Shown: in pieces, positions 47,159-50,579 of the stretch | Layout of the letters: every line of letters begins with the position of its first letter | Numbering within the stretch: position 1 is the first letter of the stretch | Origin: Siphonodentalium dalli | Lineage: Eukaryota; Mollusca; Scaphopoda; Gadilida; Siphonodentaliidae | DNA: 64,000 nt | Direction: 5' to 3' | NCBI GenBank assembly: GCA_032622095.1 | Contig: CP136062.1 | Location: 6,388,001 to 6,452,000, forward strand | Made by a program: the position numbers and the translations under genes | The notes under the pieces: model-generated | What the model was told of the DNA's origin: nothing | The model's input: only the letters and a program-made list of their open reading frames with translations | Database searches by the model: none

Positions 47159-48808
47159 TTGTTATTCAATTTTTTATTTTTCACTATTATTATTATTTAT
47201 TATTCTTAATATATTTTGAAACCCTTATATCTCAGAAAGTTTAAAAGATAAAGCATTGAAATTTGGCAGGTATATGCACCATGCCAAGGTGCATGGTAAT
47301 GAAGCATTTAGGTTTGTGTCCTAACTTGCCTACCAGAGTTATGGCCCTTAAACACAAATTTTGAAAAAAGTTTGTACGCAGATCTTCTCCTATGATAAGT
47401 CAAGCAGCTGAATTCGGTTCCCGTAATCGTGTTAACTAACGAAAGGACACGAATCGGGGAAATTTTCAAAAAGGTCCGAAAACAATTTGTTGACCAGGGG
47501 AGGGGTGCAAAATTTGTCAATTTGTTTCTTGTCACCGATTCCAACCATTTTTACTGTTGTGTATCTATGCGACGTACTGATGCTAATCGTGAAAGAATTT
47601 TGTAAATCTGTTGAGAAATGACCAAGCTATAACACATCGAAAAATGTACTAATAAAGTCCGTGTGTAGAAAGTGCTTGTGTCCAGATCTTCTCCTAGACG
47701 AAGCGCAACAGCTGGATTTGCTCTATGTGAGCGTCTTAAACATAGACAGAAGACCAAAACCAAAAAATGCCAATGTAAAACATTACACCGATGACCACTG
47801 GCGATATATTTCAACATCCATTCCTGTTCGGCGCACTGCGTTAATTGTTATATTGGCTAATGGGTAATCACTCTATGTCGACTGTCTGTCTTGTCAGCCG
47901 GCCGTGATTCTGCGGTTTTATCACGGTGCGGCTTAAACTTGACATATTTTGAGTCCAAAAACGCTCAAAATTCATTAGTTTTAGAATAGTAGTTTTTAAA
48001 AACGCCCATTTTTTACAAAAAAAATTCTCGACTTTGATATTTGAAAAGTAACGAAACTGTGGTGTCAGCTGTATAATGTTATAAGACTTCTCGGCATGGA
48101 CCACCTTTCCATAAAGCACAATCCGTCTTATGCGCGGACTTTCGCTCGCAGTTCCCAATTGAATTGAAACCATTTTAATATATGATATATTTAAATTGAA
48201 TGAATGGGAGTCAGCGTATCCCGCCCGAGACCCCAACCTTGCCTCCCTTAAGTCGCTAATTTTGGTATCATAATTTCCGAACGTAACTATCTAAGGTTTG
48301 GTATTACATTCCCATCTGTTATATAGCATGAGTTTGTTGAATTTAGATCTGACCATTTAAAAACTGTCTCTTTATCATCTGTATGTGTCACAAGTTAAAA
48401 TATATGACTTTATTGCCCGTTTGTTAAGATCGCTGATTGCACATTTCGCATTAATTGGACGAGACGTGATGTAAAGTGTTATAACTTAGGAAGAGTCCGA
48501 CAACGACGTCGTAAGTTCGTCCGTTAATCGGAAAATAACCACAAATATGTCTTAAAGCGCCGACTAATTCACCACCTGCGTGTATTCAAGAATATGAATC
48601 ACACCACAATTAAGCGAATTGTATATTGAATGTGTAGGTATAAGCTGCCATGTATATATCATTCCCAGAATGCTACCATATCATGACAATATATTAGTTA
48701 AAATAAAACACCTTGAACTGTTGGGAACATCGCGATATATGTAAGCGAGCAAAGATAGTTTAATGTCATCATACGCTATTTCGCTGTTGCGAAATGGGTG
48801 ATCATTCG
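47159..48808. other. Unassigned segment
   Basis: About 1.65 kb without a recognised gene. CAGATCTTCTCCTA occurs at ~47380 and again at ~47684, each after a GTTTGTACG/GTGCTTGTG-type stretch, suggesting a dispersed or tandem repeat. Frames up to 122 codons have no known domain. Confidence 0.4.
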
Positions 48809-49068
48809 ATCGCTTCTCGGCCTTTGGCTCGAGCCCGTGCTGTGATATACGTCCCCGACGATGGCTGGCCATCGGACGGGACTTCCACGGTGTGGGTTCG
48901 CAGCCTGAGGAGGACAAGTGGTCGTGACGGACTTCCGCTTTAGCGGGGACTGACCCCGACAGGCAATTTGACCATCTCGTAAGGGTGTGTCACCTCTTTC
49001 GGGGTGCTCCAGCCGATATGAGTGGTCCGCAATAGCCCCGGGTTCTAAAAAAAAAAAAAAAAAAAAAA
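48809..49068 (+). mobile_element. Retroposed RNA with a U2 snRNA-like head and poly(A) tail
   Basis: The segment starts ATCGCTTCTCGGCCTTTGGC, which matches the first ~23 nt of U2 snRNA from its very first base with one T missing. The match then stops. A GC-rich body of about 215 nt follows, then a run of 22 A (49047-49068). Predicted hairpins in the body: CGATGGC/GCCATCG (48859-48874), CCGC-TTTA-GCGG (48935-48946), GGGG/CCCC (48945-48957) and CACCTC-TTTC-GGGGTG (48991-49006). An AATTTGA word at ~48965, before the last hairpin, is only loosely Sm-site-like. I infer an snRNA-headed SINE or a chimeric U2 retropseudogene. The body is not recognised, and no clear target duplication is seen. Confidence 0.7.
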
Positions 49069-49151
49069 TAATCACATTGAACGACATATTTAATTATGTT
49101 TGTGTGTGAATAATGATTGTTAACTTGTGAAGACTTGCAATAACATATTAA

Positions 49152-49652
49152 ATGGTAAAATACGCGCGTTCGTATCCGTATATTTACAAAAATATCCGTC
49201 TATTTTACAAGCTCGACATGCCATGTTTGTTTATGGTATACTACAGTTCCAACACATCGGCTATTTATCATTTTGCTGGTGAGAAAGCGTATGTTCACTT
49301 TTGTGCTATTTATATGTACAGAACAAGGAACCATTACTCGGGAACGCAACCTACTGAAATGCATATAGATGTACGCGAATCATGTTACGTTCTCACACAA
49401 TGCAATTATCCCAAATCCGCGCTCTTTAAAATAGAATTGGCTGCATGGCTGCATGGCTGGCCTACTTCTGATGGAACAGTGTGTTACGCACCTGTCCGAC
49501 TAAGTCACTTTGAACCCAAATGTATACAAAATTCGCACAAGCTGGGGAAAAGTTCCCGATCTTGGACAGTCAGTACAATCGGTATAAACGTTTGTAATGA
49601 CATAACGTGTCTTGGCAGCATTACCTGTCATGCTATATTGATATGTTTCTGA
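49152..49652 (+). other. Open frame of 166 codons, not recognised
   Basis: This is one of the longest uninterrupted frames in the window. It has no recognisable domain, no clear signal peptide and no repeat structure. It is rich in Tyr, Ser, Ile and Cys, as AT-rich noncoding DNA often is when translated. It could be a chance frame; evidence for a gene is lacking. Confidence 0.15.
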
Positions 49653-50405
49653 ATTATATTTAATGCTTGATTCCTGATTCACAAGTGACATTTCAGTGAT
49701 CTTTCTAGAACGTTCCCGAGCATGATAGAACTTCAAATAAAACATATTCGCCTTTGTCCCATTCTGGTGATTTTGGGCTCGTGTTTAGCATGTTACTAAT
49801 TGTATAATAAGACGTAATCAAGACATGTGTTATCAGTTGTGTGAGTGATTGCCATTCGCGCATTAGTATTTCATAAATAAATATATCCGCTGCACGTAGA
49901 TATAACTGTCACTTATATTACTGACCGTTGAAATCACTGACCCGACAAACTGATAAACCAAGAATTAACAGTCTTGGCAAATTACAGATCGGCATTGATT
50001 TAAAACTTCGCACTTCATTGTGGACATACTATAACTATCCGTATCTTTCACGAGAATATACCGTCACATTGCAGTTATAATTTTTAACATCTCAAGTCTT
50101 TAATTTTGAATATAGGCACAAGATATAGGCACATGCGTGTATGTGGAACCCCTGCATGTTCTTTATTCCCGTTGCCAATTAAATATATATATTGTACACA
50201 TGTGTAATAAAACCGAACTGTGTGTGTGTGTTCATTTGTTTGTCGGTCTGACCTGCTATTGGTGACCAACCGGTTGGTTCATGACAAAAAAAATTGGAAC
50301 ACACGGTGAATTGTCACGTGGAGTGTCATGGGATAGGTACATCTGACGTCATGTGATTTAATTTTGAATTCATGAATAATTTAATAACATTTTTACATTT
50401 ATATC
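49653..50405. other. Unassigned segment with a short GT microsatellite
   Basis: GTGTGTGTGTG near 50220-50230; nothing else recognised. Confidence 0.35.
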
Positions 50406-50579
50406 TACAGTATGCCCTAAGTAATCGACTCCTTAAACATAGCAGAATTATGGGTAACATATCAGGATTTAGTGGGAAATATAGCCTGCTGACATTCATC
50501 CGAAATCTCTCCTGAATCCCGAAAAGTTACCCATAATTCTGCTGTGTTTAAGGGGTCGATTACATAGGGCATTACTGTA
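50406..50579. mobile_element. 174-bp foldback MITE
   Basis: Left arm TACAGTATGCCCTAAGTAAT, CGACTCCTTAAACATAGCAG, AATTATGGGTAAC; the right arm is its reverse complement with a few changes (GTTACCCATAATTCTGCTG, TGTTTAAGGGGTCGATTAC, ATAGGGCATTACTGTA). Arms of ~54 bp surround a ~65-bp centre. TA occurs at both ends. Confidence 0.88.

Follow-up and report, generated by a model that had tools for sequence, protein, structure and literature searches.

The window analysed here, a 64,000-nt stretch of the genome of the scaphopod mollusc Siphonodentalium dalli, contains a poly(A)-tailed sequence whose first bases read like the 5' end of U2 snRNA, which raises two questions: what kind of retroposon carries such a head, and how could it be transcribed? 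SINEs are usually described with internal Pol III promoters in their heads; the promoters of snRNA genes lie outside the RNA, and heads derived from snRNAs are puzzling for this reason. We therefore characterised the window copy and followed its relatives through the assembly, which comprises 2.23 Gb in nine contigs. The mollusc haemocyanin domain PF14830 matched neither this assembly nor the control genomes and is thus uninformative on the host lineage.

The window copy and its U2-headed relatives

Local alignment of positions 48809-48829 with nt 1-22 of the host U2 gave 21 identical positions and one gap, the missing base being a T, at a score of 18.5, whereas 500 single-base shuffles of the stretch reached at most 14.5. 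Together with the run of 22 A at the other end, this bears out the near-exact match to the U2 5' end that had been described at 48809 from the letters. Rfam called U2 neither at its gathering threshold across the window nor at E ≤ 10 in 48700-49100. The match stops after 22 nt because the subfamily of the window copy is without about 60 nt of head, which come next in sister-subfamily copies (by eye, in L047, L052 and L066) and lie there between the GGCT and the CGAGCC of the long head. Further downstream, an inverted repeat forms a hairpin with 15-nt arms at 48851-48882, and the body has a predicted fold of -109.8 kcal/mol (z -3.6), as low as none of 200 shuffles. A single copy of the SINE was found within the window by nhmmer (Table 1).

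Table 1. Features of the window copy and its surroundings, in window positions
Feature	Position	Strand	Basis
Carrier repeat, minimum extent, element included	47331..50368	+	L001/L003 alignment, common flanks
SINE copy, window subfamily, with 14-nt 5' extension	48795..49046	+	nhmmer and independent copies
5' extension TGGGTGATCATTCG	48795..48808	+	whole or part also in independent copies of the window subfamily
Remnant of U2 snRNA head (U2 nt 1-22, one base lost)	48809..48829	+	alignment
U2 stem-IIb-like stretch, hairpin added in loop	48844..48885	+	by eye against host U2; inverted repeat
B-box-like GGTTCGCAGCC, putative	48895..48905	+	sequence; presumed motif
GC-rich structured body	48886..49046	+	sequence, folding, core count
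Body core TTGACCATCTCGTAAGGGTG	48968-48987	+	inside GC-rich body
Poly(A) tail, 22 A	49047..49068	+	sequence

The repeat that carries the window copy measures at least 3 kb: the copy's locus (L001, window 47309-50546) aligned with L003 over positions 23-3060 of L001 at 91%, and both the 5' and the 3' flank are common to 18 of the 160 loci examined (L001 and 17 others). Because the copy rides inside this larger repeat, similarity reaches far upstream of 48809, an outcome that the sequence-only reading had named as speaking against itself. Target duplications, which that reading had proposed to look for, flank many independent copies, but none is recognisable around the window copy. Independent copies of the same subfamily that do have them carry 12-43 nt of sequence upstream of the base corresponding to 48809 (12 nt in L008, 20 in L005, 25 in L022, 40 in L021 and 43 in L017), and 48809, first taken for a full-length 5' end, was therefore dropped as the start of the element. 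A start at U2 base 1 is seen in intact copies of the sister subfamily, and not in the subfamily of the window copy.

A DNA search with the window element returned at least 50 matches (the best 40 of 571 first-look candidates were scored). The eight loci examined from it were of two kinds, with L001, L002, L003, L004 and L007 sharing kilobases of flank and L005, L006 and L008 having unrelated flanks. In L007, the window-type copy is adjoined by a relative with a longer U2 head, and a search with this relative gave at least 130 match rows (the best 40 of 623 candidates being scored). Related copies are present on all nine contigs. The exact junction between the U2 head (nt 1-46) and the body occurs 76 times and a 20-21-base body core 1196 times, with no occurrence of either reversed control. 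Exact U2 nt 1-10 precede the junction in 24 of the 62 copies examined, being changed or shortened in the rest; and when 20 loci were sampled from the 100 core matches listed, all on contig C1, 13 proved to be truncated bodies inside two other repeat groups.

Single copies starting at U2 nt 1 (L047, L049, L050, L052, L066 and L105) show the order U2 nt 1-46, with few changes at most, hairpin, IIb-like stretch and body. Rfam recognises U2 in one of them (L052; 53.4 bits, E 1e-9), and the U2 origin of the head is secure because these intact sister-subfamily copies begin at U2 nt 1. The figure of about 23 nt for the U2-derived part, correct for the window copy (nt 1-22), is thus too small for the family, whose sister copies have nt 1-46 before the body; in both cases the IIb-like stretch is added. 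The elements, about 240-310 nt long, are short, non-coding and dispersed in many copies, with an A-rich tail and target duplications, as is characteristic of SINEs. The junctions, body cores and target duplications support the proposal that the elements are a retroposon family whose head truly derives from U2 and which has an A-rich tail. Within this dispersed poly(A) SINE family, the window copy has suffered an internal deletion and probably represents a later, inactive branch, with a further leader shared with the carrier repeat.

Consensus folding of 35 distinct long-head units, drawn from 88 after exclusion of two with a run of ten C, and run without a control, left 97.6% of cells paired; 7 of 67 pairs differ on both sides while keeping standard pairs, these differences coming mostly from one or a few sequences, which gives a faint indication of a conserved fold.

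Several arrangements of the copies were also recorded. SINE units are arrayed head-to-tail in L046, L053-L056 and L133, and in L046 units of different subfamilies have the same short spacer after every A-tail, as if an insertion site had been re-used. One repeat (AAGCGAAACCTCTGG) was hit three times at nearly the same site, the SINE copies of L047, L050 and L065 being only a few bases apart in it; it looked tRNA-like by eye, an impression without support from ARAGORN, which finds no tRNA in it. On contig C3, units of about 3.9 kb form a tandem array (L131, C3:85112500-85116900) that has an old U2-headed SINE fragment at both unit starts read, and 18 exact U2 28-mers follow each other at ~3.9-kb spacing between 85.11 and 85.18 Mb. 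A further leader of ~100 nt (ATCATCATCGTTATGG...) precedes the U2 remnant in L028, L030, L033, L040 and L045; since copies with target duplications start within a few bases of each other, this leader may derive from the 5' end of a further RNA of the host, and the leader in L028 or L037 had no match when six related loci were compared with Rfam at E ≤ 1.

U4-headed copies and U4 genes containing the element

A second kind of head came to light in L089, a locus of the body-core sample in which U4 snRNA precedes the U2 remnant; its Rfam U4 match (58.8 bits, E 1.2e-11) was the sole one among the six related loci at E ≤ 1. This head consists of U4 nt 1-61, identical to the host gene, and is followed by GTCTGATGCTCATTCG and then by the U2 remnant. 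The junction between U4 and the U2 remnant, GTTATTGCTAGGTCTGATG, has 14 exact occurrences, and its reversed control none. Eleven of these are rows at nine loci outside U4 arrays (L059, L089, L122, L123, L124, L125 twice, L126, L128 and L133 twice), and the other three lie inside U4 arrays. Outside the arrays, U4 nt 1 is reached at six of the nine loci, while the head begins at nt 3 in L128 and L133, and L125 is rearranged. As L089 and L124 have flanks in common, eight of the U4-headed loci outside arrays are separate. A U4 retropseudogene with a poly(A) tail, ~9 nt short at its 5' end (by eye), was also seen (L127).

The three junctions inside U4 gene arrays (L143, L144 and L145, at C5:31.178 Mb and at C9:75.470 and 75.484 Mb) have a common layout, with U4-gene upstream sequence followed by U4 nt 1-61 without any difference from the host gene, the SINE, its A-rich tail and then U4 again. 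Behind the A-tail, U4 restarts at nt 29 in L143 and at nt 37 in the other two, so that 33 bp and 25 bp, respectively, are duplicated. Comparison of the 300 bases upstream of L143 with those of an intact U4 gene (L129) showed 298 matching columns, and the 133 bases compared between L145 and L130 showed 106 matching columns of 133. Twelve upstream nucleotides present in L145 are absent from L144, whose promoter may for this reason be damaged.

One 5' junction combined with two 3' junctions in these U4 genes means that there were at least two insertion or conversion events. Each of the three copies has private changes, namely a deletion in L143, a GACT expansion in L145 and substitutions in L144, and because these are absent from the dispersed copies, none of the three is itself the present parent. 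The true parent could be lost, could persist unchanged elsewhere, or could be one of the three before it acquired its changes; alternatively, L143-L145 may have arisen when RNA that already had a U4 head re-inserted, and would then not be the first source.

Transcription of the element and the origin of its heads

The three U4 genes with an element inside suggest that the element copies itself by borrowing the promoters of snRNA genes. We consider it probable, at roughly two chances in three, that a promoterless SINE is transcribed from the Pol II promoters of the snRNA genes it enters and that the snRNA 5' end becomes its head. According to this model, the family would be without a working internal Pol III promoter, and its successive heads would be the 5' ends of capped host RNAs. 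A copy would turn into a source on landing in an snRNA gene at a point beyond the promoter; the Pol II promoter of that gene would make a capped chimera of snRNA 5' end, SINE and A-tail; and a LINE enzyme, probably of the L1 type, would copy the chimeric RNA back into the genome, where the snRNA 5' end, in many cases preceded by a G that would derive from the cap, would serve the new copy as its head. The L143-L145 units would be driven by the U4 promoter, and the U2 head would have arisen as the U4 head did. Weighing against the model are the private changes of L143-L145, the 12 upstream nucleotides missing from L144, the headed copies that begin elsewhere than at nt 1, and the failure to find a U2 gene with the SINE in the searches described below.

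The 5' ends of the dispersed copies bear on this model. From the 73 loci headed by U2 or U4, we counted non-duplicate ones with an exact target duplication of at least 8 nt (n = 19), which left aside 54 rows with duplicate flanks or without an exact 8-nt duplication; removal of L005, where the duplication was a chance match inside the extension, gave 18 copies (15 U2, 3 U4). Exactly one extra G stands before snRNA nt 1 in 13 of these 18 (10 of 15 with a U2 head and 3 of 3 with a U4 head), two extra bases including a G are found in L064 and L096, and none in L046, L099 and L108; several of the counted duplications are short, at 8 nt in L054, L068 and L099. In the snRNA genes read, the base preceding nt 1 is T or C. 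The extra G would fit copying from the cap, and it could instead have been inherited from one source copy rather than taken from a cap each time.

Both the starts at nt 1 and the extra G would also be explained if the heads had been added by template switching, with the LINE enzyme jumping from the end of the SINE RNA to U2 or U4 snRNA and copying it to the capped 5' end during target-primed reverse transcription; the SINEs in U4 genes would then be secondary, homology-joined re-insertions. The single 5' and two 3' junctions in the U4 genes lend this some weight, as they suggest at least one re-insertion of U4-headed RNA, or conversion. There is also a precedent in LINE-1 chimeras with U6, U3 and other small RNAs, for which switching by the reverse transcriptase or RNA ligation is proposed in passages of PMC13174262. 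As described there, these chimeras resemble the SINE in having a small RNA upstream of the retroposed sequence and in the same direction; they are, however, recurrent separate events, whereas in the SINE one junction has been inherited by many copies. It is here that template switching falls short and becomes unlikely as an account of the family: it does not explain how a chimera lacking a promoter came to be amplified at eight separate loci that all have the same junction, and if such a chimera had later landed in a U4 gene, its amplification would again follow the promoter-borrowing model.

The heads themselves contain T-runs. TTTT is found in the head of all 88 long-head units, runs of 5-6 T in 44 of the 88, and TTTTT in all 12 U4-headed rows. 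Moreover, copies start 77 nt upstream of the U2 part when headed by U4, 51-101 nt upstream when headed by the leader and 12-43 nt upstream when headed by carrier sequence; since the start shifts with the foremost segment, no single internal promoter fixes it. Taken together, the T-runs and the shifting starts speak in favour of Pol II promoters outside the element and against a Pol III promoter within it, although box-like motifs are present.

The same observations make it improbable that the family is an ordinary Pol III SINE, in which TGGCTAAGATCA in the U2 head, which we take to resemble an A box, and GGTTCGCAGCC at 48895-48905, presumably resembling a B box, would form the promoter and the other leaders would be accidental. 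Box-like motifs are indeed visible by eye, and a start ~17 nt upstream of the A-box-like motif fits; the U4-headed copies, in contrast, have their first base at U4 nt 1 or close to it, some 77 nt before the U2 part begins, and the heads contain the T-runs described above. A tRNA-like nature of the body received no support, since seven related loci scanned with ARAGORN (bacterial code) yielded no tRNA, which likewise speaks against an ordinary Pol III SINE. Passages of PMC8010984 and PMC7245038 regard the heads of SINEs as internal Pol III promoters.

The alternative that the sequence-only reading had itself offered, a one-off chimeric U2 retropseudogene, would fit the window copy alone and can be set aside, as many copies are spread over nine contigs with 76 exact junctions, 1196 cores and many independent target duplications, and as a non-U2 body intervenes where in a U2 retropseudogene the U2 RNA would pass directly into poly(A).

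LINE partners and related systems

The U2 genes of this genome harbour LINEs. L137, in a U2 array, has endonuclease and reverse transcriptase domains of the L1 type; its nearest solved structure is L1 ORF2p (E 5.3e-70), and its 3' end lies in a run of N. From its APE-type endonuclease, L137 would appear to be a Keno element. A shorter relative, L138, interrupts a U2 gene with an insert of some 1.9 kb; U2 is kept there to nt 53 and restarts at nt 37 after the A-tail. On its strand, L138 has a single frame of at least 120 codons, which is similar to frame one of L137 (26.6% over 188 aa, E 7.6e-10). Since the join between U2 and the SINE, at nt 46, falls within the stretch duplicated around L138, the first U2 head may stem from an insertion there. 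A search for the main U2 promoter combined with the SINE junction gave no match at up to 3 mismatches for either subfamily. Poly(A) followed by U2 nt 37-54 was found in 27 rows (19 places when merged), all on contig C5, and at none of the 14 loci read was it preceded by the SINE end.

An off-target relative of L138 with a U2 head lies outside U2 genes (L139), and in L026 a SINE stands immediately behind the A-tail of this U2-headed, leader-bearing element, an adjacency that hints at machinery shared by SINE and LINE; the LINE partner of the SINE is probably of the L1 type. The leader of this element, CTGTTCCGAAATGGGTGATCATTCG (L139 1330-1560 and L026), is also present in some SINE copies of the window subfamily. 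Many U2 genes on contig C5 are interrupted by poly(A)-tailed inserts (L138 and L147-L160, C5:203.28-204.76 Mb), after which the U2 sequence restarts at nt 37 or a few bases before it, a pattern suggestive of two insertion positions.

According to passages of PMC4640811, Keno and Utopia are known LINEs targeting U2 genes, and in Utopia the downstream U2 part starts at nt 39. The genome studied here likewise has an L1-type LINE in a U2 array and its shorter relative in a U2 gene. Keno and Utopia code for proteins, including a reverse transcriptase, and sit in U2 genes, whereas the SINE is non-coding and dispersed, its insertions into genes were seen only in U4, and the coding element L137 is separate from it.

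The nearest known class for this SINE is SINEU. Kojima is said to have described SINEU in 2015 as crocodilian SINEs with heads derived from U1 or U2. In SINEU, snRNA heads have reportedly been added repeatedly to one body, as here, and mobilisation is reported to be by a LINE of the Tx1 group with an insertion preference for one Mariner family. The present family shares with SINEU an snRNA-derived head, recognised by Rfam as U2 in L052 and as U4 in L089, a short non-coding body and dispersal; unlike SINEU as described, it has a U4 head, host snRNA genes that contain the element, and an extra 5' G. Passages of PMC8010984 and PMC5753468 use the name SINEU for the class, and passages of PMC7245038 also mention snRNA heads of SINEs. 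We found no report in the open-access literature of a U4-headed SINE or of snRNA genes as present-day source units.

In this family, likely source units are visible, in the form of U4 genes with the element inside, with matching headed progeny elsewhere and a 5' base that points to a capped RNA. This provides a concrete model for how snRNA-headed SINEs may originate and how a promoterless element could continue to be transcribed. The wider proposition, for which we see the balance as even, is that the whole lineage is a parasite of snRNA promoters, of U2 first and then of U4, that propagates through capped Pol II RNA and re-enters U4 genes, the last step being based on the two 3' junctions found under one 5' junction. 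If this is true, turnover of heads in the family would be turnover of promoters.
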